From NCBI GenBank assembly GCA_017398545.1, contig JAFQFT010000039.1, positions 1 to 55,738 on the forward strand: 55,738 nucleotides of DNA. The letters run 5' to 3'. Origin of the DNA: Bacilli bacterium. Its GTDB lineage: Bacteria > Bacillota_I > Bacilli_A > ML615J-28 > CAG-313. Shown piece by piece: positions 2-47,100 of this stretch. Under the pieces are notes generated by a model that did no database searches, had not been told where the DNA came from, and saw nothing but the letters and a program-made list of their open reading frames with translations. Made by a program: the position numbers and the translations under genes. The stretch's first letter is position 1; each line of letters begins with the position of its first letter.

Positions 2-1549
2 GCACCACTTGAGATTGTTTTAAACTTAAGAGGTAAAAATGAAACTGGTTTAATACTTAATAAACAATTATTAATTTCATCTAAACTTGATGCTCCAAGA
101 ATTCATTTATTAAATAAGAAAATCTCAAACCCTGAAGTTCCAAATAACTTTTGTATGCTACTTAGAAAGTATATTGAGCGTGGAATAATTAATAAAATAA
201 TTCAACATGAAAATGATCGTCTGATTGAACTACACATTACTGCTTTTAATGAGTTAGATGATGAAAATACTTTTATCTTAATCTTTGAAATAATGGGTAG
301 AAATAGTAATATAATTCTCTTAAATAACGATTTTTTTATCATAGATGCTTTACGAAAACTTCCGCCTTCTAATGAAAATTCTAGGACAATTATCCCTCAC
401 GCAAAGTATCTTTATCCAGAATCAAATAAGAAAATTAACCCATTTATAGATGAAATTCCTCCAGTATTAGATAGCATTCAAGGTGTATCAAAACCTTTAT
501 TACATACACTAAATGAGTTAGATTCTTCTAAAATAAAGGACTTTTTAAATCAAGAAATTAACCCTGTAATTTATAAAACAGAAAAGAAATTAGACTTCTA
601 TGCATACCCAATATCAAGTGATTATGAAGTAATTTCAAGGCACTCTACACTTTCCAATATGTTAGAAGAATACTATACAGAGTCATTAAAAACTGTTAAT
701 TTTAATGCAGTAGAAATAGAAAAAACTATTTCGAAAGAACTAAAAAAAGCAATTACAAAATTAAATAACTTAACACTTGATTTAGAAAATGCAAATAAAA
801 ATCTTAAATATTTTAACATTGGAATTTTACTCCAATCTAATCTTTATAAGGTTAAAAAAGGCGATGAAAGTGTAATAGTAAATGATTATTTTAATGATAA
901 TCAACCTATTGAAATAAAACTTAATCCTTTACTTGATCCTTCTTCTAACTTAAAAGTAATCTTCAATAAATCAAAAAAAGCTCAAAAAGCGCTTATTGAA
1001 GTAAAAAAACAAATAGATAAAGTAGAAAAAGAAATCGAATATTTTAATACAATATTATTCCAATTATCAATCGCAAACAACACTGATTTAGAAGAAATTA
1101 AGAGTGAATTAATCCTTAATGGTTATTTAAAATCAAATCAAAAATTAAAGAAAAAACAACAAAAATTAAATATCTTATCATACACAATAGATGATGTTAC
1201 TATTTATATTGGTAAAAATAATACACAAAATGATTACCTAACACATAAACTTGCCTCAAGTAATGATTACTGGTTTCATACACAAAATATTGCGGGAAGT
1301 CATGTTATTGTAAAAGTACCAGAAAACAATCCAAATTACCAAATGACAGAACTTATAATTAGAGCAGCAGCAAATCTTGCAGCATACTATTCAACCGCTA
1401 AAAATTCTAGTAGTGTTCCAGTAGATTATACAAAGGTAAGATATTTGAAAAAAGTACCTGGTATGAAAGGATCATTTGTAACACTTTCAAATCAAAAAAC
1501 AATCTATATTGATCCAGATATTAATTTAATTAATGAATTATTAAAATAA
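2..1549 (+). CDS. rqcH: Ribosome quality control protein RqcH (NFACT/Rqc2 family), 5' end missing
   Basis: The frame is open from the first bases of the window and runs through the ATG at 155, so the gene is cut by the window edge and 155 is not its start. The fragment holds the end of the NFACT-N domain (the stretch before LLRKYIERG), a long lysine-rich coiled-coil middle (about residues 190-350 of the fragment), and a C-terminal NFACT-R (DUF814) domain with NDYWFHTQNIAGSHVIVK. The family binds stalled 50S subunits carrying peptidyl-tRNA and, in Bacillus, adds C-terminal alanine tails that mark the peptide for degradation. Older annotations call it fibronectin-binding protein. It is followed at once by a strong hairpin terminator. 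Identity is secure; only the N-terminus is unseen. Confidence 0.93.
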   Translation, partial: APLEIVLNLRGKNETGLILNKQLLISSKLDAPRIHLLNKKISNPEVPNNFCMLLRKYIERGIINKIIQHENDRLIELHITAFNELDDENTFILIFEIMGRNSNIILLNNDFFIIDALRKLPPSNENSRTIIPHAKYLYPESNKKINPFIDEIPPVLDSIQGVSKPLLHTLNELDSSKIKDFLNQEINPVIYKTEKKLDFYAYPISSDYEVISRHSTLSNMLEEYYTESLKTVNFNAVEIEKTISKELKKAITKLNNLTLDLENANKNLKYFNIGILLQSNLYKVKKGDESVIVNDYFNDNQPIEIKLNPLLDPSSNLKVIFNKSKKAQKALIEVKKQIDKVEKEIEYFNTILFQLSIANNTDLEEIKSELILNGYLKSNQKLKKKQQKLNILSYTIDDVTIYIGKNNTQNDYLTHKLASSNDYWFHTQNIAGSHVIVKVPENNPNYQMTELIIRAAANLAAYYSTAKNSSSVPVDYTKVRYLKKVPGMKGSFVTLSNQKTIYIDPDINLINELLK

Positions 1550-1551
1550 AC

Positions 1552-1603
1552 AAATCTCCAAATCGATTATACTAAATATTTTAGTATAAAGATTTGGAGA
1601 TTT
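1552..1603. terminator. Bidirectional intrinsic terminator between rqcH and the VWA gene
   Basis: A perfect 13-bp stem (aaatctccaaatc at 1552-1564 with gatttggagattt at 1591-1603) encloses a second nested stem (atactaaa/tttagtat). T-rich tracts flank it on both strands, so it can end both convergent transcripts. Confidence 0.88.
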
Positions 1604-1614
1604 TTATTTTATAT

Positions 1615-2901
1615 TTATTTTGGAATCTTAATTCTTGCTACTTTTCCATAAGGAGGAGTAATTTTGTCATTATTAATAAGCCATAAAATAGGTATATTAT
1701 AACTACTGTCAAGTTTAGGATAAGGAGCCTCTCCATCCGTTAGAATAATTATCATTATAGGAGGTTCATCCATTCTATCAACATATTCAAAAACAGATTC
1801 AAAACTAGTTCCTCCACCACCCATAGGTTTAATTTTTTCAATATCAGATACATCTTCAAAATCTACAACATTATGAACAATATAATCAAAGAATCCAAGT
1901 TTACCAGATAGCTTACCATCAAACATCGAAATAGCACCATATACTTCAGAAAAAGCATATGCAATCATTTCATTAGTCATAGAACCAGATGTATCAATCA
2001 TAAATAAAACATCTTTAACTATATCATCTTTATCAGAATATGATGGTAAAAAGAAATCACCACTATAACGATAATCTGGCGGTAAAAATGTATAATCATT
2101 TATCTCTTCTTGAATAAATTCATTTAAAACATAACGCCAATCAATTTGAGGTGTTGTTAACTTAGTAACAAGTCTTTCTATATATGCAGGCATATCACCT
2201 GCACCAAGAGCCTCATTTTGACGTTCTATTGCTTTAACAGCTTCATATATACGGTTATCCCATTCAGCTTCCTTATCCTTAGTTTCACCACTTTTTTCTT
2301 TCCATTTAGAGTGATCATCTATTGTTTTACTATTAGATGTACCTCCTGAAGAATCAGACTCATCATTTGAATCACTCGATGATGAACTAGATCCTTTAGA
2401 ATTATTACCACTACCTTTTTTTGCCTTCATGCCTTTTTTAGACATTTTCTTCTCTAACATTTCATAAACTTCTTCTGCAGTATAGTTACACCCCTCTTTC
2501 CCATTAGGTGCTATATGCATAGAGGTTCCATATTTATCAAGGGTAATAGCTTTTAAATCAAACCCGTGTTCTTGTAAGATAATTGAGTTAATAACAATAT
2601 CACACGCAATATTAAATAACTCTGGATTTCTTTCACCATCTCTAAAACAATGTTTTAATACTACATGTAATATCTCATGCATTAGAATAAAATCAAGTTC
2701 ATTATCAGATAATTCATTTAAAAACTTAGGACTAAAATATATATATTCTGCATCTGTTGCGGCAGTCTCAATACTTTCATCTAATGCCATTTTCATATGC
2801 ATTAACAATAGTCCTAAGAATCCATACTTTGCTAAGACTCTTGTTCTAGAAAGCAGTAGTTTTCTTATTAGATTATTCTTTTCTTCATTAGATAAGTCCA
2901 T
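1615..2901 (-). CDS. Putative metallopeptidase with VWA-like domain (DUF2201 type), third gene of helicase-MoxR operon
   Basis: This 428-residue protein has an N-terminal DUF2201-type domain with HEILH at residues 75-79, a zinc-protease-like HExxH. A low-complexity Lys/Ser/Gly/Asp linker follows (about 155-215), then a C-terminal VWA-like domain with a MIDAS motif DTSGSM (about residue 303) and GGGGTSF. Proteins of this type (COG3864) commonly pair with MoxR ATPases, which are thought to remodel a target bound by the VWA partner. Here it overlaps the MoxR gene by 14 bases and is the last gene of a three-gene operon. No signal peptide is seen, so it is probably cytoplasmic. Whether the HExxH is active, and what it would cut, is unknown. 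Confidence 0.85.
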   Translation of the reverse strand: MDLSNEEKNNLIRKLLLSRTRVLAKYGFLGLLLMHMKMALDESIETAATDAEYIYFSPKFLNELSDNELDFILMHEILHVVLKHCFRDGERNPELFNIACDIVINSIILQEHGFDLKAITLDKYGTSMHIAPNGKEGCNYTAEEVYEMLEKKMSKKGMKAKKGSGNNSKGSSSSSSDSNDESDSSGGTSNSKTIDDHSKWKEKSGETKDKEAEWDNRIYEAVKAIERQNEALGAGDMPAYIERLVTKLTTPQIDWRYVLNEFIQEEINDYTFLPPDYRYSGDFFLPSYSDKDDIVKDVLFMIDTSGSMTNEMIAYAFSEVYGAISMFDGKLSGKLGFFDYIVHNVVDFEDVSDIEKIKPMGGGGTSFESVFEYVDRMDEPPIMIIILTDGEAPYPKLDSSYNIPILWLINNDKITPPYGKVARIKIPK

Positions 2902-4003
2902 TTAAAAACCTACCTTTAGTTTTTACAAAATTCATAAATTCAGGTAATTTCATTAATTTAAACTTATAATCTTTTTCAAGTGCTAAATAGTCTTTAATTA
3001 AAATTACTGAAAAATCAGGTGGAAACTTATCAGAATATCTTATTGAATAAGCAATCTTTCTTAAATCATCTTTATGTTTAGATGCATATGCTACCATTGA
3101 AGAAACAAGGGCATATAGTTCATCAACTTTAGAAGGACATGGTGGATTTTTACCATTAAAAATATCTTCAATATCAGGTAAGTTTTTATATAGTTTACAC
3201 CATGTTCTAAACTCAGTTGCAGTACCAACACCGACTATTCCACTTATTAAATCAAATACTTCATTAACATTATCAGATATATTATTTAAAATATTACTTA
3301 CCATTTCCCATGAACGAGGAGTTGCAAAAGCGATTGAATCAACACTTGGGTCAAAAGCCATTAATGCAGTTGGCTTAAATGTTAAGAACCCTAATACTTT
3401 TTCATTTATTCCACTTCTTACTGCCCATCTTTTCCACGCATCAAAATCATCTTCAATTTCAAAATGCATAAGTCTATTTGCAAGTGCCTTTGGCATTTTA
3501 AAAGTTACTGATTTATCAGTCATTCTATTACCAGCCGCAATAACAATACAGTTATCAGGAAGTTTATGTTCACCGATAACACGGTCTAGTGTAATTTGAT
3601 AAGCAGCAGCTTGAACAGATTGTGGAGCAGCAGAGATTTCATCAAGAAATAAAATATTAACAACGTCACTACTATCGCTCATATTAAAAATTTGTGGTTT
3701 TAACCATACTGCAAGTGTCTTATCAGCATTAGCTGTAGGAATACCACGTAAATCAATTGGATTAAATAGTAATAATCTAACATCAACAATATTAACTTTT
3801 TTCTTAGTATTTAATTCTATTTCTTTACCAATTTGTCTAATACCTTGCGATTTACCAACACCTGGAGGTCCCCACAGCATTACTGAGGGGATATTTTTAA
3901 GAGGAACATTATTTAAAATAGCTTTTGTATAAACAAAAGATAACTTTTCTACAACCTTTTCGATTGTAACTGTGGGCATATCAAATGTATTTAATTTACT
4001 CAT
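2888..4003 (-). CDS. MoxR-family AAA+ ATPase
   Basis: This 371-residue AAA+ protein has Walker A WGPPGVGKS at residues 44-52, Walker B ILFLDEIS, and the sensor-like stretch IAAGNRMTD. MoxR ATPases act as hexameric chaperones that work with a VWA protein to activate or remodel a partner. The gene overlaps the helicase gene upstream by four bases (ATGA) and the HExxH/VWA gene downstream by 14 bases, so the three are translationally coupled. The family is clear, the substrate is not. The VWA partner is next door, and the obvious third partner is the helicase. Confidence 0.9.
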   Translation of the reverse strand: MSKLNTFDMPTVTIEKVVEKLSFVYTKAILNNVPLKNIPSVMLWGPPGVGKSQGIRQIGKEIELNTKKKVNIVDVRLLLFNPIDLRGIPTANADKTLAVWLKPQIFNMSDSSDVVNILFLDEISAAPQSVQAAAYQITLDRVIGEHKLPDNCIVIAAGNRMTDKSVTFKMPKALANRLMHFEIEDDFDAWKRWAVRSGINEKVLGFLTFKPTALMAFDPSVDSIAFATPRSWEMVSNILNNISDNVNEVFDLISGIVGVGTATEFRTWCKLYKNLPDIEDIFNGKNPPCPSKVDELYALVSSMVAYASKHKDDLRKIAYSIRYSDKFPPDFSVILIKDYLALEKDYKFKLMKLPEFMNFVKTKGRFLNGLI

Positions 4004-7000
4004 TTTATTTCAACTCCTAATAGTTCATCAATTTTCTTTAATTCAGTTTCTAGTCTTTCAATTATTTCTGCATAATAATTATCTTTAGATAATTCTTGTT
4101 TTAAATCCAATTCTTTCTTTAATAACTTTTCCTTAGTTTCAAGATAATCATCTTTTATTTTAGGTAAACGTTCTAAAAAGTTATCTAAACGAACAATCGT
4201 ACCAAGTTCAGTATTTCCCATATCTACATGATATTTAGAATATCCTTCAACATATAAATAAGCTTGATCTCTTACAATATTTGTTGGAACAATCAATCTA
4301 AACCCTTGATAATCACAAATATATACTTCTTCAGTAGATAATTCATTTTGAATAATTGCATCATATATAGTAGATCTAAGCATTTTACGAGCCTCTTCAT
4401 CATACTCTGCTTTATTATTTAAATAAATCTTAATATCTTCTTCACAGCCACTAATTTTATCATCAAGAACTTTAATACGATCAGGAATATCTGATAATTC
4501 TATTTCCATAGCATATCTCGTTTCAAAATATTTCTTTTGAAGAAGACGATATCTATTTAATTCATTAGATGTTTCAACACGTTTTTTAAGTAGTGGATTA
4601 CCAAGTGCTAAAGCTTTAATCTCACCATAATTAAGAACAATTGCTTCAAATTCCTCACACATTCTTTCAGTCATACAACCTTTAAGAAGAGCATTAATCA
4701 TCTTTTGTTTAGACTCTAAAATTTGCCAAGAATATGCATCAAAACTACCTTCAGTAATATATCGATAAATAAACACTTCTTCATTTTCATTACCTTGTCT
4801 TACAATTCTTCCTTCACGTTGAATAATATCCGAAGGACGCCAAGGAATATCTAAATGGTGTAATGCAATAAGTTTATCTTGAACATTAACACCAGTACCT
4901 AGTTTAAAGGTTGATCCAATTAAAATACGTATTTTTCCACGTCTTACATCTTCAAATAATCGATTACGTTTCGAATCAGTTGTCGCATCATGAATATACG
5001 CAATCTCATCTTCAGGAATTCCATAAGTAGTTAAAAGATATTTTAAATCATCATAAATATTAAACTCATCTTTAGGTGTAGATATATCACAAAATACAAG
5101 TTGAGCATACTTTTCATTATAATATTTAAAATAAAGATCAAAAATATTCTTTGCACAATAGGCTACTTTAGATTGTAGATAAAACTGCATACCAGGCTTA
5201 ACAAGTCTTAAATCAAGAGCTGCTTTTCTTCCATCAGTAGTAACTTTCAATAAATTATCATCTTTTCTTTTAACTTTATTATTTCTAATTTTTTCTGCAC
5301 GTTCAGAAATAGTTTTTAAATACTGTTTAAACTCATTTGTTTGAGGAATAGTCACATCAATATAACCATTCATTTTAGGTAATTCATCAGAATCATCAAC
5401 ATTATAAAAATCAATCACATTAGATAAGATGCTTGATAACTCTGGCATATTATGATAATTAGAAAAACGTGTTGCAATACGATAATTAGTAGTATCTACA
5501 TCAATTTCAAATGTTGATTCTTTTTCAACAAACATCCCAACCCAACTATCAAAGTTTTGTAAATTAAATAACGATAGTTCACCACTTTGAAGATACATTT
5601 GCATTACATAAATATCCGATAATGAGTTAGTAATAGGTGTACCTGTTGCAAAAACTACCCCTCGACCATTATTATTCTTTTGAACACATCTAACTTTTAA
5701 CATCATCTCATCACATTTTTTAGAACCAGTTGATGTCATTCCATTAACTCTTTTAATCTTAGTCTCAATTGTAAGATTCTTATAATTATGAGCTTCGTCT
5801 ACAAATAAAGTACCAATACCAAGTTCATCAAAAAATACTGCATCTTCATTTTCAATATATTCTTTTTCTAACTTTTCAATTTCTTCTTGTAAACTCTTAA
5901 TCTTAGATTTAACTAAAGTAGTTTGTTTCTTCTTTTTAGTTTGTTTTTGTAATTCATCAAGTTTAGCTTTTAATATTTCTAATAAATAATTCTTAGAAAT
6001 TGGCATACGATCAAAACAACTATAAGGAATAATTACCGCATCAAAATCTTCATCTTTAATTTTCTTAAGTGTTTCAAACATCTTAGTCTTAGTAAACATA
6101 CTGGGAGTAATCGCAAGTACTTTAGAAGTAGGATATAAATATGTAAACATTGAACTCCACTGTCCAACTAAACTATTTGGAACAACATACATATTCTTAC
6201 TTGAAATCCCAATTCGTTTTAATTCCATCCCTGCAGCAATCATTACATATGTCTTACCAGCACCTACTTCATGTGCAAGTAAAGTATTTGGTGAAAATAA
6301 AATACGAGCTACAGAATTCTTTTGATAATTATAAAGTTTAATATCTTCATTTAAGCCTGGAAACTCTAAGAAACTTCCATCATATCTTCTAATTACATTA
6401 GAACAATACTTTTGTTCATAAATATCCATCAAGTATTTCTTTCGAGATTCATTACTCCAAACCCAACTTCTAAACTTATCAATAAGTAATCTTTGTTTTT
6501 CAAGTACTACTGTTGTTTGTTCTTTATCAATAACACGCTTTTTTTCAATTCCATTTCTAACTTCAGTAGTAATCTCAATCGTACGCATATTTAGAGTTCT
6601 TTCTAAAATATGCAGTGCATTATGCTCAGCAGTACCATAAGTTCTAGAAACGGCTACATTATAATGTAAATATCTATTTTTATAAGGTATTTCCCAACTA
6701 CCAGTAAGTTCATCATGAATTGTTTTTAACTCTTCTCTTGCTGCAGGTCCATAACATTTACCAAAGTATGATGTTCCAAAAGTTTCATCAATAAACTGAT
6801 CAATGATTTCACTAGGAAGCCAAGGAGAACCAAGTGTTACATATACTTCTCCACTAGATACAGTATGAGGCTTTACTAATTTTAATGCATCAACATTCTT
6901 CTTAAAATAACCTTTATACTTTTTATTATATTCTTCCGCAATCCTTAACTTTTCATATATATTACCAGATAAATACTCATCAGCTGTTTCATATCCTTTA

Positions 7001-7770
7001 TAGAAACACTCTTCCCAATATAAAGGATTTTGATAAATAGTGCCACCTAATTCAATAATAACTTCTTTTAAACTATAACCAGTAATAGAAGATATATATT
7101 CAATATCAACTTTACCTAATACATTTAAACATTTAACAAGCCCATCCCCAATATTTTCTTCAAATACACCTTGAGCACGCTCATCATTTAAATAAATATT
7201 AGTCCAATCCATTGGTAGTTCCATAGTATTAAGATTTTCTAAAACTATTTCAGTCTTTTCTTCTTCTAATAAATCATTATACTTTTTAATAAATTCTAAA
7301 AAACCATACTCTTTAACTGCATCAAAATTAACAACTAAATAATCAAGTAGTTCATTTGTTAAATCAATATTAAGATTTGGAACACTTTTTGCAACTGTCT
7401 TAATAATACTTCTTTTATCTTTATCATCAAAATTAAAATTTAATGTAAAATTAAAATTTTTAAAACACTTTAATCCATCAATGAAGAAATTAATAGCATG
7501 CTTTGATTTAGAAATATACACAACATTTTTAACTTGATCATAAAAATTAAAATAATATCTAATTGCCACAAGATGAGAAATAATTAACTCTACATTATCT
7601 TCAAATGCTAAATAAATTCTATTACCATCAAAACCAACCGTAAAAACATAATCATCTGCATTTTTAACCGGTGTTACAAACTGATCTTTAATACGCGTTT
7701 CAAAAGTTTTATCTACATCTTTTTGTGTATACACTGAATAAAAAATTGATATTGTTTCTTTACTTGCCAC
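4000..7770 (-). CDS. Large SF2/SNF2-like helicase (COG4646-like), first gene of operon
   Basis: This 1256-residue protein carries SF2 helicase motifs: Walker A HEVGAGKTY (about residues 500-508), DEAH (about 658), motif III FATGTPITNS, and motif VI QREGRIVRQGN (about 983). It lacks a visible methylase domain. From memory, its closest relatives are the helicase halves of giant methylase-helicase proteins in Firmicutes conjugative elements; shared landmarks include YETADEYLSGN and the spacing around YDGSFLEFPG. A long helical, coiled-coil-rich C-terminus follows. The start is GTG at 7770, with GGGAGG eight bases upstream. No integrase, relaxase or conjugation gene lies nearby, so this is not an obvious mobile element. 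It likely acts on DNA or nucleoprotein with the MoxR and HExxH/VWA proteins encoded downstream. Confidence 0.85.
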   Translation of the reverse strand: MASKETISIFYSVYTQKDVDKTFETRIKDQFVTPVKNADDYVFTVGFDGNRIYLAFEDNVELIISHLVAIRYYFNFYDQVKNVVYISKSKHAINFFIDGLKCFKNFNFTLNFNFDDKDKRSIIKTVAKSVPNLNIDLTNELLDYLVVNFDAVKEYGFLEFIKKYNDLLEEEKTEIVLENLNTMELPMDWTNIYLNDERAQGVFEENIGDGLVKCLNVLGKVDIEYISSITGYSLKEVIIELGGTIYQNPLYWEECFYKGYETADEYLSGNIYEKLRIAEEYNKKYKGYFKKNVDALKLVKPHTVSSGEVYVTLGSPWLPSEIIDQFIDETFGTSYFGKCYGPAAREELKTIHDELTGSWEIPYKNRYLHYNVAVSRTYGTAEHNALHILERTLNMRTIEITTEVRNGIEKKRVIDKEQTTVVLEKQRLLIDKFRSWVWSNESRKKYLMDIYEQKYCSNVIRRYDGSFLEFPGLNEDIKLYNYQKNSVARILFSPNTLLAHEVGAGKTYVMIAAGMELKRIGISSKNMYVVPNSLVGQWSSMFTYLYPTSKVLAITPSMFTKTKMFETLKKIKDEDFDAVIIPYSCFDRMPISKNYLLEILKAKLDELQKQTKKKKQTTLVKSKIKSLQEEIEKLEKEYIENEDAVFFDELGIGTLFVDEAHNYKNLTIETKIKRVNGMTSTGSKKCDEMMLKVRCVQKNNNGRGVVFATGTPITNSLSDIYVMQMYLQSGELSLFNLQNFDSWVGMFVEKESTFEIDVDTTNYRIATRFSNYHNMPELSSILSNVIDFYNVDDSDELPKMNGYIDVTIPQTNEFKQYLKTISERAEKIRNNKVKRKDDNLLKVTTDGRKAALDLRLVKPGMQFYLQSKVAYCAKNIFDLYFKYYNEKYAQLVFCDISTPKDEFNIYDDLKYLLTTYGIPEDEIAYIHDATTDSKRNRLFEDVRRGKIRILIGSTFKLGTGVNVQDKLIALHHLDIPWRPSDIIQREGRIVRQGNENEEVFIYRYITEGSFDAYSWQILESKQKMINALLKGCMTERMCEEFEAIVLNYGEIKALALGNPLLKKRVETSNELNRYRLLQKKYFETRYAMEIELSDIPDRIKVLDDKISGCEEDIKIYLNNKAEYDEEARKMLRSTIYDAIIQNELSTEEVYICDYQGFRLIVPTNIVRDQAYLYVEGYSKYHVDMGNTELGTIVRLDNFLERLPKIKDDYLETKEKLLKKELDLKQELSKDNYYAEIIERLETELKKIDELLGVEIK

Positions 7771-7803
7771 TTTAATTTCCTCCCTTTAAATTTCGTCACA
7801 AAA

Positions 7804-7826
7804 AGTAGACAAAAAACTTGTCTACT
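7804..7826 (-). promoter_or_regulatory. Terminator-like leader hairpin (attenuator candidate) before the helicase gene
   Basis: A 9-bp perfect stem (agtagacaa/ttgtctact) with a 5-base loop sits in the 5' leader of the helicase operon and is followed on the minus strand by a short T tract. It lies between the 14-codon leader ORF and the helicase Shine-Dalgarno site, the usual place for an attenuator. Function is inferred. Confidence 0.55.
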
Positions 7827-7835
7827 AATTTTCCA

Positions 7836-7880
7836 TTATTTCATAAAAAACGCCCTAAAAAAAGACGTATTTTTACTCAT
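7836..7880 (-). CDS. Possible 14-residue leader peptide of the helicase operon
   Basis: An ATG at 7880 follows AAAGGGTG by five bases and opens a 14-codon frame, MSKNTSFFRAFFMK, ending TAA. It lies downstream of the consensus promoter P2 and upstream of a terminator-like hairpin and the helicase start. This layout matches leader peptides in attenuation control of stress and resistance genes. No homology can be claimed for so short a peptide. A chance ORF is possible, but ribosome-binding site, promoter and hairpin are all in the expected order. Confidence 0.45.
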   Translation of the reverse strand: MSKNTSFFRAFFMK

Positions 7881-7911
7881 TTTTACACCCTTTTCAAAAT
7901 TAGGTAAAGGC

Positions 7912-7940
7912 ATTATACACCTTTATATATCGTTTGTCAA
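7912..7940 (-). promoter_or_regulatory. Consensus sigma-A promoter P2 of helicase operon
   Basis: On the minus strand TTGACA (7940-7935) and TATAAT (7917-7912) are separated by 17 bases, a perfect consensus. Transcription would start near 7905, giving a leader of about 135 bases before the helicase GTG. Confidence 0.85.
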
Positions 7941-8028
7941 CAAATTAAATAAAAATCAATAAAAAATAATATTTAACACTTTTTAAACACTATTTTCATA
8001 AATTTTTTTGTTTTTTTAACCTATTTTA

Positions 8029-8057
8029 ATTATATCAGCATTAACATACTTTGTCAA
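8029..8057 (-). promoter_or_regulatory. Consensus sigma-A promoter P1 upstream of helicase operon
   Basis: On the minus strand TTGACA (8057-8052) and TATAAT (8034-8029) are separated by 17 bases, a second perfect consensus about 117 bases upstream of P2. It begins just after the terminator of the Cse60-like gene. No gene start lies between the two promoters, so it may drive the same operon or a short RNA. Confidence 0.75.
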
Positions 8058-8068
8058 TATTTGAAAAA

Positions 8069-8103
8069 AAATAACTATTTAAAACAATCTTAAATAGTTA
8101 TTT
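8069..8103 (-). terminator. Terminator of the Cse60-like gene
   Basis: A 13-bp perfect stem (aaataactattta/taaatagttattt) is followed on the minus strand by a run of eight T. It lies eight bases after the stop codon of the small gene. Confidence 0.88.
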
Positions 8104-8110
8104 TCATAAT

Positions 8111-8284
8111 TTATTTAATTATAATCATACAAGAAAAACAATATATTTGTTCTCTTTCATCATATGTTACCGCAACACTATATTTAATATCAAAGATATC
8201 ATCACTATCATAATCACTTAACACTTCATTAACTTTCATTTCTAAATCTAATTCATTCTCTTCATCAAAAACATATACACGCAT
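8111..8284 (-). CDS. Cse60-like small sporulation protein
   Basis: This frame encodes 57 residues, starting MRVYVFDEENELDLEMKVNE and ending SCMIIIK. The pattern of short length, V-Y/K-V-FDEE near the start, I-KYS in the middle and EQIYCFS near the end matches my recollection of the Bacillus Cse60 family (about 60 residues), a mother-cell sporulation gene of unknown role. The start is supported by GGAGG nine bases upstream of ATG 8284. The Shine-Dalgarno site lies inside the 3' arm of the nth terminator hairpin. A strong terminator follows. The family assignment rests on pattern recognition of a short protein, so it is moderate. Confidence 0.68.
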   Translation of the reverse strand: MRVYVFDEENELDLEMKVNEVLSDYDSDDIFDIKYSVAVTYDEREQIYCFSCMIIIK

Positions 8285-8288
8285 ATAA

Positions 8289-8342
8289 AAAAACCTCCAC
8301 TATTATTTTACTATTAATTAGTAATTAATCTTGGAGGTTTTT
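8289..8342 (-). terminator. nth terminator hairpin overlapping both nth and the next Shine-Dalgarno site
   Basis: An 11-bp stem (aaaaacctcca at 8289-8299 with tggaggttttt at 8332-8342) is followed on the minus strand by T residues. Its upstream arm encodes the last codons of nth; its downstream arm contains the GGAGG of the Cse60-like gene. Confidence 0.7.
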
Positions 8343-8975
8343 GTCATTATAATAAATACAACTATTTTTATAAAAACAACTTTCACAATTAGGTTTTTTC
8401 GCAAGACAAAAATATCTTCCAAAGAAAAGTAATAAATGATGTGATTTATGCCACTTAGTTTCATCTATTAATTCCATTAATTTTAACTCTACATCTAAAA
8501 CGCTAGAATTATTATCTACTAATCCAAGCCTTTTACTAACACGCTCAACATGAGTATCAACTGCAATTCTAGGAATTTTAAATCCTTCGGACATTACAAC
8601 GTTTGCTGTCTTTCTTCCAACACCAGGTAGAGTCATAAGTTCATATAAATCACATGGAACTTCACCATTATATTTTTCCGCTAATATTTTAGAAGTTTCA
8701 ATAATATTTTTAGACTTAGTTGAATAAAGACCAATTCTTTTAATTATTTCTTTTACATCTTCAACACAAGCACTTCCTAAAGCATTAGCATTAGGATATT
8801 TTTTAAATAACTCAGGTGTAACAATATTCACAGATTTATCAGTAGTTTGAGCACTAAGCATTACTGCAATTAATAATTCAAATACATTATTATAATTTAA
8901 TTCACAACCAGCATTTGGAAACATTTTTTCTATTTCAAATAAAATACTAGTTAGTTCTTCTTTACTTTTTAACAT
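8325..8975 (-). CDS. nth: Endonuclease III
   Basis: This base-excision repair DNA glycosylase/AP lyase removes oxidised pyrimidines. It shows the helix-hairpin-helix LPGVGRKTANVV, the following DTHVERVSKRLG region with the catalytic aspartate, and the C-terminal 4Fe-4S ligand set C-x6-C-x2-C-x5-C (CLAKKPNCESCFYKNSC). Length, about 216 residues, is usual. I prefer the ATG at 8975 (MLKSKEELTS) over 8984, because GGTG precedes it and the family usually begins there. It overlaps the end of dnaD by 14 bases, giving the dnaD-nth pair known from Bacilli. Confidence 0.95.
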   Translation of the reverse strand: MLKSKEELTSILFEIEKMFPNAGCELNYNNVFELLIAVMLSAQTTDKSVNIVTPELFKKYPNANALGSACVEDVKEIIKRIGLYSTKSKNIIETSKILAEKYNGEVPCDLYELMTLPGVGRKTANVVMSEGFKIPRIAVDTHVERVSKRLGLVDNNSSVLDVELKLMELIDETKWHKSHHLLLFFGRYFCLAKKPNCESCFYKNSCIYYNDKNLQD

Positions 8976-9585
8976 ACGCACCATCTAATAATGCTTTTAA
9001 CTCTTCATCAACTTCAATTTCAGGTTTTGCTTGATGAGATGCTTTACTTGCAAGTATAGCATCAGCATATTTTAAATTATATTTACCAAGTTGAAATGCT
9101 CTAAACACAGCACTTTTAATATCTTCATAATCATAATTATTATCAAGCCAAGCATTTATAATTATTAAATCAGCAGCACTACAAATTCTAGAAAAAGTAG
9201 TCTCAACATAAGATACAATTAAACTTAATTTTTCTTTTCTTTCATCAAGTAATTCATCACTTGATCCTTTATCTAACACAACACCTAACTTTTCAATAAC
9301 ACCATCAAGTGTAAATGTTTCTTTACCATTATTATCAAGTGTAAGTTCAATATACCCCTTATTTACTAAATCAATAACTAAATCACTTAACTCTTCAATA
9401 TTAATTGTTACTTCTTTTGCAAGTTTTTCAAGTTCTAAGAAATTATCATTTTCATCAGCTAAATAATAAAGTTTAGCTACTATTACAGCAGTTGCTTCAT
9501 TTAAACCAATCGCTTTATAATGTTTTATTAATACTTGAGTAAAATCAATCGTTTTTGCTTTAATTAATTTTGCTATACTATTCAT
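8962..9585 (-). CDS. dnaD: DnaD-like replication initiation protein
   Basis: This 207-residue protein has an N-terminal winged-helix part (about 1-100), a linker, and a C-terminal DnaD domain with YDYEDIKSAVFRAFQLGKYN and KYADAIL. DnaD takes part in primosome assembly and DNA remodelling at the origin and at restart sites in Bacilli. GAGGG lies nine bases before ATG 9585. The gene is followed by an overlapping nth, as in Bacillus. Assignment to chromosomal DnaD rather than a phage paralogue rests on the nth neighbour. Confidence 0.9.
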   Translation of the reverse strand: MNSIAKLIKAKTIDFTQVLIKHYKAIGLNEATAVIVAKLYYLADENDNFLELEKLAKEVTINIEELSDLVIDLVNKGYIELTLDNNGKETFTLDGVIEKLGVVLDKGSSDELLDERKEKLSLIVSYVETTFSRICSAADLIIINAWLDNNYDYEDIKSAVFRAFQLGKYNLKYADAILASKASHQAKPEIEVDEELKALLDGAYVKK

Positions 9586-41250: not shown

Positions 41251-41289
41251 TAACAATATGACAAGGTATTAAACCTTGTCATATTGTTA
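41251..41289 (-). terminator. Terminator of the 1937-residue helicase gene
   Basis: A 16-bp perfect stem (taacaatatgacaagg/ccttgtcatattgtta) with a 7-base loop includes the stop codon of the gene. Confidence 0.87.
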
Positions 41290-44200
41290 TTTTAATTTTA
41301 CATAATTATCTTTAATAATAAATTCACTTGAATTTAAAACAACATATTTAATTAACTTACTAAGCTTATCAAGCGTTGCTTGTGTTAAAACTTTAACTCC
41401 AAAGAAATTACCTAAAATATGTGCAAAATCATCATATTTAACACTACCCTGTACTTCTAAAATATCTTTCATAGCTACTTTAATTTCACATGCAGGTATC
41501 TCAGTAATATCTCTTTGAGAATTATTAGAAATACGATAATAATCAATATTCTTTTCTTTCTTATCTTTAGGAAAATATATTGCTTGAGACAATTCTAATT
41601 TCTTTTCACGATTAATAGCAGTTAAATGTTTATCAAATAAACGTTTAACTCTTGCACCTGCTTTAGAAACATTAACTAATTCTTTAAATCTTTCAAGAAG
41701 TAGTGTATAAGCAATCGGACCTTCAAAATCAATAATCTTTGTAAGTTCTTGAACAATACCATTTTGAATATATTCATCCACCATAGCATCATAACTAAAA
41801 TGAATTCTAAATGGATATTTTTCATATGTCTTTGCACGTTTATATACTTCAACAATATCTTTTTCAAACACAACATCAATTGGATCATCAATCACTTCAA
41901 TTATTTGATTCTTTTTATTAATAGCTTCAATTATTAAATCTAGAACTTGTTCTTTATTCTTAATATAATCAATTGAATATATATTAATTATATTCCAATC
42001 AAGACGTTGAAGTGTTCTTATTTGAACACAGTTTCTATCACGACATGTAGAATCTTGTGCGTTGACACCACCATCACAAATAATACCAAGAACATAATTA
42101 CCATTCATATCTTTAACACAAAGATTTAATTTTAGTTTAGAATCACCTACTAAAATATCAGAATCAATTCCTCTTTTTAATAGTTCTTCTTGAAGTTCTC
42201 TTTCAATACCAACATAGCTAATTACTTGATGAGCATTTTCCATAATTAAACATGACATTCCATGTTCTGCATAAATCAAGAATTCTCTTAAGACTTCTGC
42301 ACCTTTATTTTTAGTCTTAAAGGTATTGATATCATTACCATGAATAGAAGCATATACTTTCATTTCTACTTTAGATCTAGTTACCGCAACATTTAGTCTT
42401 CGTTCACCTTTTTCAAGTGATAAAGGACCAAAATGAAGATGGAACTTCTTATCTTTATTAAAACCAAATCCAACTGAGAATAAAATAACATCACGTTCAT
42501 CACCTTGAACATTTTCAAGATTTTTAACAAACAACTTATCTTTATTAGCTTCATTAATCTCATTAAACTTAGGATTAGCCTCAAATAAATCATTAATCTT
42601 TTCAAGAATAAGTTCTTGTTGTTTCATATTAAATGTAATAATACCAATAGATTGTTTAGAAAGTTCTGGATCTTTAAAACGTCTTACAACTTCTTTTACT
42701 ATCGCATCAGCTTCTTTTTCATTAATACCTGAATCATATACACCACCAACATACTCATAACTAACTCTTCTAAATGAATTATCTGGAGAAGGGAATGTAT
42801 ATAAAGAATGATCATAGAACATGTTATTAGAAAATGCAATTAATGATTCATGAGTACTACGGTAATGCCATAAAAGTCTGTTTCTTCTCATACCAAGTGC
42901 TAAACAGTCATCTAGTAGGCTTTCTAAATCATCAAAGTTACTACCTATTTCCGCAATCTCATTATTTCCAATTACAGTTTGGAAAAAAGTAGTTGGTGGC
43001 ATTTGTTCAGGATCCCCCGCAACAATTAACGATTTACCACGTGAAATAGCACCTATTGCTTCACAAGTCGGAATTTGACTCGCTTCGTCAAATATAACTA
43101 AATCAAATTTTTCACTATCTAGACTTAAATACTGAGCAGCACTCATTGGAGACATTAAGAAACATGGACAAATTTGTCTAATTAATTTACCATATTCAAT
43201 TAGAATATTTCTAATTGTTGTTTTATGGCCACCATTTTTAATACACTTTTGCAAGCCATAAATAGCAGTAGATTTAGCGTAACCAAAATTATTAACTGGA
43301 TAATTCTTAGTAATCTTACTTGCAGTTTCAGTAATAATCAGTTCTGTATATTGATCAAGTAATTCATTATATTTTCTTATCGCATTATCAAATAATAAAC
43401 CATTAAATTCAATAAAATAATAATCTTTAAAATACTCATTAATTAACGCATAATTATGACTTGCTATAAAATGATTTAATAAATCATTTAAAGAACATTT
43501 ACCTTCTTTATAATATGTAATAAACTCAATTGGGAATAAAACATTTGAAAGTTCAATAAAACTCTTATTATATAAAGAAATACCTTCAAATTTATTAATT
43601 TCATTTACCATTTTATAAACAATAGATTTATAAATTTCATAAGCATTATTATCTTCTTTGAAGACAAATTTATTAATATTAAGTTCAAAATCATTTACTA
43701 AATTAGTTTCAGAAACTAAATAAGCATTATATACTTCAACTACTTTTTGTAACTTATACTTACGATGGTCATCATTATTAATTTCATTATTCATTACTTT
43801 AAATGAAGTAATAATGTTAAATAAATTATCATCAAGATCATTTTGATAAGTTAATTTATCCAAATATTGTTTGAATAAATAAGTATTATTATAATATTCT
43901 TTCATTAATGAAAAATTAGAAGATAGTTCTTTATACTTATCGCCAAATAATGCTTTTAAGAAACTATTATTTTCATTAATATATTTTTCATTAAGTTGAT
44001 ATTTTAAGACTTTTTCAAGTGTAGTAGTAAGGTCAAAATTATTAATTTTATAACTTATATTTTTCAAATATGATTTAAGAGTTTTCTTAATATTTGATTG
44101 AATAAAGATTTTAGTTAAGAAATTACTATTATTTAATTTAGTTAGTAATTCATTTGCATTAATATTTAAAACATCTTTATGATATAGTTTTTCTAAATCT

Positions 44201-47100
44201 TTTAATACATCATTACAAATAATTCCTTTTTCAATTAAATTTAATGAATTAGAATTATTATTAATAATATCATTTGAATATAAATTATTAAATGTAACTT
44301 TATTTGTTAAAACTAATTCTAACATTTTAATAAGAATAGATACATTATTAAAACTAAAATTAATATTTGCGTTAATATAATCTTTAAACTCATTTAATTT
44401 ACCACATAAAAGTCCAAGTTTTTCGTTTAAATCAACTACTAAATCATATAAATGTTCTTTCATTGTAAATAAATAATTAGATATATCAAAAGCATAGAAT
44501 GCAGAATCAGTGTATTCACCATATTGTTGTTTAATAGAATTAAGTTTTATAAAAAGTTCATTAATTTCTTTTAAGTTATTTTCATTTAAATTTAAGAACT
44601 TATTAGAATCAATTTTTAAATCAATTAAATAATCTTCTTTAGAATAATAATTTACAATCGCATCATGTAAAGAATATACAAGTGTTTTAGTATGAATTCG
44701 TTTAATAAAATCATTTAAATAAGAACGATTTTTAGCAAGTTCATTAATTTGTTCATCAAATTCTGAAGGAGATTTTGTATGATCATGAGCAAGTGCTTTT
44801 CCAATTTGATCTAAAACAGCACGTTTATGAGCTTTATGTGAATGAAGTTCTAAACAAAAACATCCAAGATTAATATCATCAATACGCTTTTTAACAACTT
44901 CTAAAGCAGCCATTTTTTCCGCAACAAATAATACAGTTTTACCATTATACATTGCGTTAATAATCATATTAACAATTGTTTGTGATTTACCAGTACCAGG
45001 AGGCCCATCAAGGACAAAACTTTCTCCTTTTGTTGAAAGAGCAATTGCCTTAATTTGTGAACTATCTGCAGATAGTGGAATTGCAAGATCATCTGGATTA
45101 AAATCTTTATCAACATCAAAATTGAATTCTAAGTCGTGTTCAAGTGGAAGTCCTTCAACAAATCCTTTAATAACTTTATTTTCTAAAAGTTGATCTTTTC
45201 TATTATGAATATCTTCCCAAAGAATATAGTTTGCAAAAGAGAAAGTTGATAAGAATACTTTATTATCGTCAACTGCAATCATACATTCAGAAGATGTTTT
45301 TTCTCTAATTGCGTTAAATACAGAAGAAATATTTAAGTTATTAATTTCTCTATCAACATTATATAAAGATTCAAACGAAATATCACAAGTTTGATGTAGG
45401 TATTCTAACACTGTTGTATTGATTGCAATATTATCACTATCAACCATTACTTCATAACCATTAATAGTACGTTTATTCTTACCACGAACAGGAATTAAAA
45501 ATACTGGTGCAACAAGTGATTTTTTTGAATTCTTTGGTGTAAAGTTAATTAAACCAAAACTTAAATATAAATTATTAGATCCTGTTTCTTCAATTGATGA
45601 ATTACCTGCTCTAAATAAAGCTTTTAGTGTTGTATCAGTTGTACAAATTGCGTACACTCCTCTTTTAGCTAAATCATCAATATTAGTTGAATCTTCCCCA
45701 TATTCATAATAAGTATTTGCTGGTAAGACTTTATCGTTTGGATATAAATAAATCTTATCTGTTTTAAGAAGTGTTTCTAACATATTACTTGCACTAGAAT
45801 ATACAAGTTGAGGACTAGAAGGACCAATCTTAAAATTAATTAATTTATTTCTTAAACTTAAATCAAGTAACTTTTTAGACCAGTAATTAAACTTATCAGA
45901 ATTTTCAATGCCTTCATAAACTTCTTGATTTGTATCACTATTCTTTCTTTTTAAATCATCTTGTTCTTCTACTTCCATATTAATAACAAAATTACCATTT
46001 TCATCTCGTTCTAAACTTGGAATTGGACGGAAAATAGTTTTATGACAAGAAAGAACATCTATTGCACAAAAGAAACTACTATAAAGTCTTATATGATCAC
46101 GTGCTTGTTTAGTAGCTGCATTAAAAGTTTGATTACTTGATGCAGTATACATTGTACATTCAACGAGCTCAATCGCAAGGTTATCATTAGCTGATTGATT
46201 AAACACCTTACCAACATCTGTACAAGTCTTTTCTAAGAAACATTCATCATTTAAGAAACATCCTGCAAAAGCATGACCATCAATTAAAATTAGAATAGGA
46301 TTTAAACCAACATTTTCTAAACAAGCACAATATAAAATAGCTAAATCTAAACAAGTACCTAGTTTTTCATTTAATACACTCTTTGGAAGTCTAACACTTT
46401 GGAATAAATTAAAACTTGCAGGTGGATTAGCATAGTTAATACCTATTGATTTTAAAGCATTATATATTGCCATCATTTCTTCACGAACTGAATCAATATC
46501 ATTAGCTTGATAACCAACAAAAGCACTTTCTTTTTTTCTAATCTCAGATAAAACTTTTGTCGCATGTTTAATTACTTCTTTTACTTCATTAATATTAGGA
46601 GTTACGAAACAAGATAACATTTCATAATTATCAATAATATGACTAGATTCATTCATTGGCGTAATAATGATATCAGTAGTTACTTCTTTTAATAAAGTAT
46701 TCTTATCATAAAGTTTAATAAGTAAATTAATAGGAGTAGTCTCAGATATATTATATAGACCTACAGTATCAACTTTAGTCATAATACCTTCAGTAACTTT
46801 AGTAGTTGAATTTTCACTAACTAAACTTAAATAAATATCACTAATACCAATTAAATTATGTGAAAAATTAAACTCTAATCTTAAATCTTTATAAGATTTG
46901 TTTTCTTTATTAGTTATAATAATTGATTCAACTAACGAAAAAGGAGTTTGTTTAAGAGTAGTATTACGAATTTTATAATAAGTATCACACTGATAACATA
47001 AATAATTATACTCTTTTTTAATATTAAGTGTAATATCAATATCATGTTTAATATCATGCTTTCTTATAACATCAAATTCTTCATTTCTAGTTGGTTCCAT
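41287..47100 (-). CDS. Transglutaminase-like/DUF4011/SF1 helicase/REase/DUF3320 giant protein
   Basis: This single 1937-residue polypeptide has an N-terminal part with a transglutaminase-like Cys-His stretch (LGTCLDLAILYCACLENVG at about 244, then IDGHAFAG). A DUF4011-type region follows (about 395-650). An SF1 helicase core has Walker A DGPPGTGKSQ (about 697), DEAS (about 1336), GDPEQMPP and VAVTRS. A long helical insertion lies between the motifs (about 790-1290). A nuclease-like domain with LGIICDGG (about 1672) resembles the MTES_1575/Vsr-type restriction fold, and a DUF3320 C-terminus ends it. Relatives are frequent in accessory DNA and are suspected to act against foreign DNA. It is transcribed alone. 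Confidence 0.87.
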   Translation of the reverse strand: MEPTRNEEFDVIRKHDIKHDIDITLNIKKEYNYLCYQCDTYYKIRNTTLKQTPFSLVESIIITNKENKSYKDLRLEFNFSHNLIGISDIYLSLVSENSTTKVTEGIMTKVDTVGLYNISETTPINLLIKLYDKNTLLKEVTTDIIITPMNESSHIIDNYEMLSCFVTPNINEVKEVIKHATKVLSEIRKKESAFVGYQANDIDSVREEMMAIYNALKSIGINYANPPASFNLFQSVRLPKSVLNEKLGTCLDLAILYCACLENVGLNPILILIDGHAFAGCFLNDECFLEKTCTDVGKVFNQSANDNLAIELVECTMYTASSNQTFNAATKQARDHIRLYSSFFCAIDVLSCHKTIFRPIPSLERDENGNFVINMEVEEQDDLKRKNSDTNQEVYEGIENSDKFNYWSKKLLDLSLRNKLINFKIGPSSPQLVYSSASNMLETLLKTDKIYLYPNDKVLPANTYYEYGEDSTNIDDLAKRGVYAICTTDTTLKALFRAGNSSIEETGSNNLYLSFGLINFTPKNSKKSLVAPVFLIPVRGKNKRTINGYEVMVDSDNIAINTTVLEYLHQTCDISFESLYNVDREINNLNISSVFNAIREKTSSECMIAVDDNKVFLSTFSFANYILWEDIHNRKDQLLENKVIKGFVEGLPLEHDLEFNFDVDKDFNPDDLAIPLSADSSQIKAIALSTKGESFVLDGPPGTGKSQTIVNMIINAMYNGKTVLFVAEKMAALEVVKKRIDDINLGCFCLELHSHKAHKRAVLDQIGKALAHDHTKSPSEFDEQINELAKNRSYLNDFIKRIHTKTLVYSLHDAIVNYYSKEDYLIDLKIDSNKFLNLNENNLKEINELFIKLNSIKQQYGEYTDSAFYAFDISNYLFTMKEHLYDLVVDLNEKLGLLCGKLNEFKDYINANINFSFNNVSILIKMLELVLTNKVTFNNLYSNDIINNNSNSLNLIEKGIICNDVLKDLEKLYHKDVLNINANELLTKLNNSNFLTKIFIQSNIKKTLKSYLKNISYKINNFDLTTTLEKVLKYQLNEKYINENNSFLKALFGDKYKELSSNFSLMKEYYNNTYLFKQYLDKLTYQNDLDDNLFNIITSFKVMNNEINNDDHRKYKLQKVVEVYNAYLVSETNLVNDFELNINKFVFKEDNNAYEIYKSIVYKMVNEINKFEGISLYNKSFIELSNVLFPIEFITYYKEGKCSLNDLLNHFIASHNYALINEYFKDYYFIEFNGLLFDNAIRKYNELLDQYTELIITETASKITKNYPVNNFGYAKSTAIYGLQKCIKNGGHKTTIRNILIEYGKLIRQICPCFLMSPMSAAQYLSLDSEKFDLVIFDEASQIPTCEAIGAISRGKSLIVAGDPEQMPPTTFFQTVIGNNEIAEIGSNFDDLESLLDDCLALGMRRNRLLWHYRSTHESLIAFSNNMFYDHSLYTFPSPDNSFRRVSYEYVGGVYDSGINEKEADAIVKEVVRRFKDPELSKQSIGIITFNMKQQELILEKINDLFEANPKFNEINEANKDKLFVKNLENVQGDERDVILFSVGFGFNKDKKFHLHFGPLSLEKGERRLNVAVTRSKVEMKVYASIHGNDINTFKTKNKGAEVLREFLIYAEHGMSCLIMENAHQVISYVGIERELQEELLKRGIDSDILVGDSKLKLNLCVKDMNGNYVLGIICDGGVNAQDSTCRDRNCVQIRTLQRLDWNIINIYSIDYIKNKEQVLDLIIEAINKKNQIIEVIDDPIDVVFEKDIVEVYKRAKTYEKYPFRIHFSYDAMVDEYIQNGIVQELTKIIDFEGPIAYTLLLERFKELVNVSKAGARVKRLFDKHLTAINREKKLELSQAIYFPKDKKEKNIDYYRISNNSQRDITEIPACEIKVAMKDILEVQGSVKYDDFAHILGNFFGVKVLTQATLDKLSKLIKYVVLNSSEFIIKDNYVKLK

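Follow-up and report, generated by a model that had tools for sequence, protein, structure and literature searches.

The window analyzed here, the whole 55,738-nucleotide contig JAFQFT010000039.1 of a Bacilli bacterium (assembly GCA_017398545.1), carries a triad of genes encoding a DarB-type SNF2/SWI2 translocase (hereafter the helicase), a MoxR-type AAA+ ATPase, and a DUF2201 protein in which an HExxH zincin-like domain is joined to a von Willebrand factor A (VWA) domain (Table 1). The triad is a conserved, co-diverging unit of overlapping genes with intact ATPase, metal ion-dependent adhesion site (MIDAS), and metal-site motifs, and it occurs sporadically, inserted in otherwise conserved sites of the chromosome. 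Its accessory and transferable distribution, together with an association with WYL-domain proteins, favors a role in conflict over housekeeping repair or simple maturation of the helicase. Judging from the distribution, the WYL association, and the neighboring genes, a role in defence of one kind or another is probable. Our confidence is evenly balanced on the fuller proposal that the three genes make up a self-contained conflict system spread by horizontal transfer, probably directed against phages or plasmids and acting by the mechanism described below. The source genome (a 1.83 Mb assembly in 76 contigs with a completeness of 88%) contains a single copy of the triad.

One genome per species (84,980 species) was searched for the MoxR protein, yielding at least 80 loci, and a DUF2201 gene was present in all of the 80 matches listed. 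The helicase gene was found in each of the 77 listed loci with room for it, and in the remaining three the contig ended just upstream. Across all searches, approximately 85 loci share the same gene order and similar overlaps, and thus the triad recurs far beyond chance. The first-pass annotation of the window, made from the sequence alone, had proposed to look for the three families together in other genomes and had named the lack of a conserved triad elsewhere as grounds for giving up its reading; the triad proved to be conserved. The helicase and MoxR genes overlap in 74 of 82 loci (usually by 4 or 8 nucleotides), and the MoxR and VWA genes in 72 of 82 (usually by 14, 17 or 11 nucleotides). 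The overlaps of 4 and 14 nucleotides reported for the window agree with the coordinates of the open reading frames (ORFs). They suggest translational coupling, whereas the fixed stoichiometry initially read from them is unproven. In a single exception (L068), the helicase gene does not precede the other two but follows the VWA gene at a distance of approximately 5.4 kb. The amino acid identities of the three proteins amounted to 97/95/93% in a congener (sister species G011) and to 51/64/51%, 41/53/38%, and 41/52/36% in other genomes of the class. Between the window and the congener, the ratios of nonsynonymous to synonymous substitution were 0.13, 0.09, and 0.10, indicating purifying selection, and the Walker, DEAH, HExxH, and MIDAS motifs are nearly invariant across the triad loci. 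The three proteins diverged in parallel (Mantel r of 0.78–0.81, with none of 1000 permutations as high), a correlation that includes shared descent and is a sign of joint inheritance, not by itself of contact.

The carriers are mostly gut and rumen Firmicutes, among which the triad is patchy (2 of 15 genomes in the family and 3 of 43 in the order). Around a Lachnospiraceae genome, MoxR matches were found in 5 of 98 genomes, one of the five having no helicase beside MoxR; a sample of the phylum contained a related MoxR in 8 of 392 genomes, with G050 and G092 lacking any helicase match genome-wide. In the helicase tree, which was inferred by a quick method and contains some long branches, a single branch with full support separated the triad helicases from the methylase-fused helicases. 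The only member from Actinomycetota (Anaerotardibacter, Eggerthellaceae) nested among those of Bacillota, pointing to horizontal transfer. As both flanks in the window aligned by BLASTN to adjacent bases of a relative (G012), positions 1552–8121 represent a 6.6 kb insertion, in which no integrase was found and which adjoins a small conserved ORF after nth. The gap between nth and rqcH is only about 30–360 bp in six triad-less relatives. The congener bears the triad at the same nth/rqcH site together with two extra ORFs of unassigned function. Between its nth and the triad (L005, approximately 6470–8038) lie a TAA-interrupted helix-turn-helix-like frame and a 230-aa ORF, both absent from the window, and thus the insertion site keeps changing.

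No fixed fourth gene accompanies the triad, as the flanks share no family beyond WYL-domain proteins, AAA_lid_6 ATPases, and LRR_5 proteins. WYL-domain proteins account for 15 of the 259 genes located within two genes of a triad, against approximately 0.26 expected (Poisson P ~1e-21) from the 44 WYL matches in 19 carrier genomes (~43 Mb) under the assumption of one gene per kb. Nine WYL genes sit directly beside a triad, within 150 nucleotides, and eight of them are on the same strand. In 48% of cases, WYL regulators of the BrxR family are found together with known systems of phage defence (PMC9122601). Directly beside one triad, which is 51–64% identical to that of the window, lies a type III-A Csm locus that includes cas1/cas2-like genes and encodes a Csm6-like CARF protein (L006, 195–9570). 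A type IIG restriction-modification (RM) gene, a retron-like reverse transcriptase, and McrBC were also found beside triads. The window itself contains, 34 kb away from the triad, an Hhe/PDC-S37 gene, which is already known as a candidate for anti-phage defence. Separately, AAA_lid_6 ATPases of approximately 670 aa were noticed in 13 triad loci, a raw count, and several are directly adjacent to the triad (the loci include L033, 4450–6462, as well as L044, L050, L067, L081, L058, L070, and L099).

The helicase is related to the antirestriction polyvalent proteins of the DarB type (PMC5512222), and the triad could thereby be selfish or anti-defence cargo, being a relic of an integrative element or benefiting one. 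We consider this very unlikely. No homologue of the conjugation genes from the elements carrying fused helicases was found in the triad flanks. What the two have in common is limited to widespread ABC transporters, an exonuclease-like protein, and, in one locus (L113), serine recombinases. Carriage by conjugative elements was rejected on these grounds, and the possibility raised at first, that the triad resides only inside complete conjugative elements, falls with it. Carriage by plasmids or phages was likewise rejected, since neither the 72,556 plasmids nor the 50,697 phage records searched contained a close MoxR. The lack of an integrase in the inserted segment of the window and the separate clade of the triad helicases also speak against cargo, albeit two large serine recombinases near the triad of L113 would fit it. 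A scan of viral contigs recovered a single triad, that of L113, and a single distant MoxR; two of the faecal "phage" contigs with strong helicase matches were discarded, as they encode proteins of methylase-helicase length without MoxR. In L113 (5293–12087, a viral-contig record), the triad is followed by genes that were assigned by eye to a TROVE/Ro60-like protein, a sigma-like protein, and the two recombinases, and this triad may reside in an integrative element.

The helicase of the window comprises the Pfam domains SNF2-rel_dom and Helicase_C with intact motifs (Walker A 500-HEVGAGKTYV, DEAH at 658–661, and motif VI QREGR at 984–988). Residues 205–1216 match the DarB-like family phrog_10089 with an E-value of 5e-237, while Pfam detected no N-terminal adenine methylase domain. 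DarB-like methylase-helicases, known from phage P1 and conjugative elements (PMC5512222), belong to the same SNF2 family with approximately 35–40% identity over ~1000 residues. They bear an N-terminal adenine methylase or LPD36, neither of which is present in the triad helicases; the latter have no transfer genes nearby and always accompany MoxR and DUF2201. Both remarks of the first-pass annotation on this protein hold, namely that helicases of this type usually occur in giant methylase-helicases of mobile elements (borne out by sequence matches and PMC5512222) and that neither a methylase nor mobility genes accompany the one in the window. The median length in the triad clade is 1157 aa. Both the length and the sequence of the N-terminus are hypervariable across the family, and residues 1–190 of the window protein are an extension restricted to the source genus. 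The predicted model (predicted local distance difference test, pLDDT, of 83) is helical in regions toward the N-terminus and has a long, coiled-coil-like helix at the C-terminus, and a fold search with it returned an SNF2 core resembling those of ISWI, CSB, RapA, and ZorD and also close to Rad54. A nuclease domain in the helicase was rejected, as only the SNF2 core was returned. SNF2 motors track duplex DNA (PMC5512222).

The ATPase was assigned by Pfam to AAA/AAA_3 of the MoxR type, and it retains Walker A (44-WGPPGVGKSQ), Walker B (LFLDE), and the conserved GNR, ANR, and TPRSWE motifs; a five-sequence profile found no sequence match among solved structures at 1e-3. The DUF2201 protein matches DUF2201_N, a putative metallopeptidase domain (E-value of 3e-38), and the VWA-like DUF2201 domain (2e-14). 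Its N-terminal zincin-like domain bears the HExxH motif as H75-E-I-L-H79 (H75, E76, and H79), a low-complexity linker spans residues ~160–200, and the C-terminal VWA domain bears the MIDAS residues D303, S305, S307, and T388-D389. In the predicted model (pLDDT of 81 and predicted template-modeling score of 0.56), the N-terminal HExxH region forms a helical domain predicted with confidence, and a VWA fold is also present. By profile comparison the HExxH region resembles MJ1213, and by fold comparison the full-length model is similar to metallopeptidase-VWA proteins of phages. Both His75 and His79 are conserved without exception across the triad DUF2201 proteins. Besides, one locus (L105, 11079–13377) has tandem DUF2201 genes, the first of which is shorter (311 aa) and has HQMLH in place of HExxH. 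Couples of MoxR and VWA proteins act as ATP-driven remodelers, the ring being plugged by the VWA partner, as in NorQD (PMC9976466).

An accessory repair function for the host, in which the SNF2 protein and the MoxR/VWA-zincin pair clear DNA-protein crosslinks or stalled complexes from its own chromosome in the manner of SprT/SPRTN with no role against invaders, appears unlikely. The patchiness even within a genus, the insertion at an empty site, the horizontal spread, and the WYL association are all unusual for repair genes. Nevertheless, the purifying selection on the triad, the proximity of the SNF2 fold to RapA, Rad54, and CSB, and weak resemblances of the HExxH domain agree with repair; the SprT-like match reached 17.4 bits, below the Pfam cut-off of 25.6, albeit HExxH itself is present, and the similarity to Peptidase_M48 is also weak and below the cut-off.

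The conserved joint inheritance of the three genes, one of which encodes a metal-site domain, is suggestive of a single machine that locates its target via DNA and then remodels or cleaves a protein. We tentatively propose, as a possible but doubtful mechanism, that an SNF2 motor tracks along DNA and brings a MoxR-VWA unfoldase, equipped with a zinc-peptidase domain, to proteins bound on invading DNA, with neither nuclease nor DNA modification involved. The SNF2 protein would translocate on double-stranded DNA as the DNA-facing sensor, for which its hypervariable N-terminus is a candidate, and the remodeling unit would consist of the MoxR ring and, as its MIDAS adaptor, the VWA protein. Engagement of the translocase with DNA that is invading or actively replicating would lead to the recruitment of MoxR-VWA to a protein obstacle or target, which it would unfold, and the zincin-like domain would cleave the target or hold it via the bound metal. 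Nucleoprotein complexes of the invader would consequently be dismantled, analogous to a DNA-protein clearing machine of the SPRTN/p97 type directed at invaders. As no methylase is encoded, self could not be told from non-self by co-encoded DNA methylation.

Several observations weigh against the conflict system so conceived. No nuclease or toxin domain is evident in the triad proteins by Pfam or, for the helicase, by the fold search. Leaving WYL aside, few loci have a known defence gene next to them, and the clustering in classic defence islands is modest. The catalytic Glu of HExxH is replaced in 5 of 79 triad DUF2201 proteins (four of the five in Lachnospiraceae); metal binding thus seems universal among them and catalysis not, implying that cleavage is not essential in every member. 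Furthermore, phages encode the same MoxR-VWA-zincin pair with no helicase of this type beside it, and the pair can thus have other targets.

A dedicated chaperone pair would accommodate the third of these points, since invariant metal-site His residues and a dispensable Glu fit metal handling better than proteolysis. MoxR-VWA would then merely mature or assemble the helicase by metal insertion or conformational activation (compare NorQD and CbbQO), leaving the helicase alone as the effector. Pairs of MoxR and VWA proteins usually serve one client (PMC9976466), and the co-divergence of the triad proteins is tight. However, the two fused-helicase contigs examined had no MoxR/VWA adjacent to the helicase, and related MoxR-VWA pairs occur without the helicase, beside type I RM-like genes or alone; we regard this explanation as quite unlikely.

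The triad has no name, no PADLOC or NCBIfam model, and no described function. Searches of PADLOC and NCBIfam found no matching system but only partial motor-domain or AAA/P-loop matches; the helicase matched DrmD with 53 bits against a cut-off of 610, and no PADLOC match was found for the VWA protein. DISARM, BREX, Zorya, and IetAS were rejected, as there was no full-length match to their signature proteins. The defence helicases ZorD, DrmD, and BrxHI have the SNF2/SF2 motor core in common with the triad helicase, but the similarity is partial and far below the family cut-offs, and their partners differ. No description of the triad was found in the searchable open papers, most subscription papers being outside the search, in line with the initial statement that no such system had been described. 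RavA-ViaA and NorQ-NorD share the MoxR ring and VWA adaptor with the triad but have no helicase, and their known clients are respiratory or metalloenzyme complexes.

The likeness to ternary NTP-dependent conflict systems noted at the outset stands only as a list of parts. As in the MoxR-vWA ternary systems with VMAP, iSTAND, or TERNS3 (Kaur et al. 2020, 2021; PMC7159879, PMC8195603), a MoxR AAA+ ATPase and a MIDAS-bearing vWA protein are present in one operon in the window, with a third, larger component and an accessory distribution. In contrast, that component is an SNF2 translocase; the bpMoxR profile (PF20030) gave only an E-value of 0.22 and 11 bits against a cut-off of 27 on the window MoxR, and Pfam found no VMAP, iSTAND, or TERNS3 domain among the triad proteins of the window. 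The ternary systems place an effector at the C-terminus of the vWA protein, whereas the zincin of the triad is N-terminal to vWA, which ends at residue 424 of 428 without a C-terminal effector domain. Their hosts are multicellular prokaryotes, whereas the triad is carried mostly by Firmicutes of the gut and rumen.

The phage pair of MoxR and metallopeptidase-vWA proteins (jumbo phages, PMC7824862; N4-like gp25) belongs to the same families, phrog_1297 and phrog_1314, and the fold similarity spans the whole DUF2201 protein, with identities of at most ~47% for MoxR and 34% for VWA among the matches listed. In the loci examined, a DarB-type helicase does not accompany this pair as a neighbor, and a role in virion assembly has been proposed for it. 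If defensive, the triad would add a strategy of translocase plus unfoldase/peptidase to bacterial immunity and might help to explain how frequent this pair is in large phages. It opens to testing both the role of a DarB-type motor without a methylase and the targets of MoxR-VWA outside metabolism. Phage DUF2201 proteins of phrog_1314 are labeled "HNH endonuclease" (for example L138, 4962–6167; L137, 4977–6140; L134, 5980–7158), which looks like a propagated misannotation, since no HNH domain is seen in the related protein of the window.

Table 1. Features in and around the cassette, with positions in the window.
Feature	Position	Strand	Remarks
Helicase gene (DarB-type SNF2/SWI2 translocase, no methylase)	4000..7770	-	1256 aa; GTG start; Shine-Dalgarno GGGAGGA
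MoxR-type AAA+ ATPase gene	2888..4003	-	371 aa
DUF2201 gene (HExxH zincin-like domain + VWA)	1615..2901	-	428 aa
Inserted cassette	1552..8121	.	~6.6 kb; BLASTN against relative G012, both flanks contiguous there
rqcH/NFACT, flanking core gene	155..1549	+	Convergent with the cassette; boundary marker, outside the system
nth (endonuclease III), flanking core gene	8325..8984	-	Boundary marker, outside the system; adjacent to rqcH in triad-less relatives
Upstream sigma-70-like promoter	8029..8057	-	TTGACA-17-TATAAT; TG before -10; 12/12 match
Proximal sigma-70-like promoter	7912..7940	-	TTGACA-17-TATAAT; 12/12 match
Two terminator-like hairpins	7804..7868	-	7868-7850 and 7826-7804; after the promoter, ahead of the helicase start
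Hhe/PDC-S37 gene	41287..47100	-	1937 aa; DUF4011/AAA_11-AAA_12/MTES_1575; PADLOC PDC-S37 E 5e-290, Hhe E 5e-133

In the leader, the first hairpin lies inside a 14-codon ORF (MSKNTSFFRAFFMK). The hairpins are a possible attenuator in the window, and we go no further because hairpins precede the helicase in only 8 of 69 loci, where outside the window some may merely terminate the preceding gene; a conserved leader terminator was rejected for the same low count. The fold of the leader is unexceptional against shuffled sequences (z of -0.98), and an Rfam search gave no match. The proximal promoter and the leader have close counterparts in the congener.

Related MoxR-DUF2201 pairs without the triad helicase were seen in L131, L132, L133, and L130, followed by strings of unassigned downstream genes. 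The pair of L131 sits after a type I RM-like methyltransferase/specificity gene, and these pairs are possibly sister systems with other third components.

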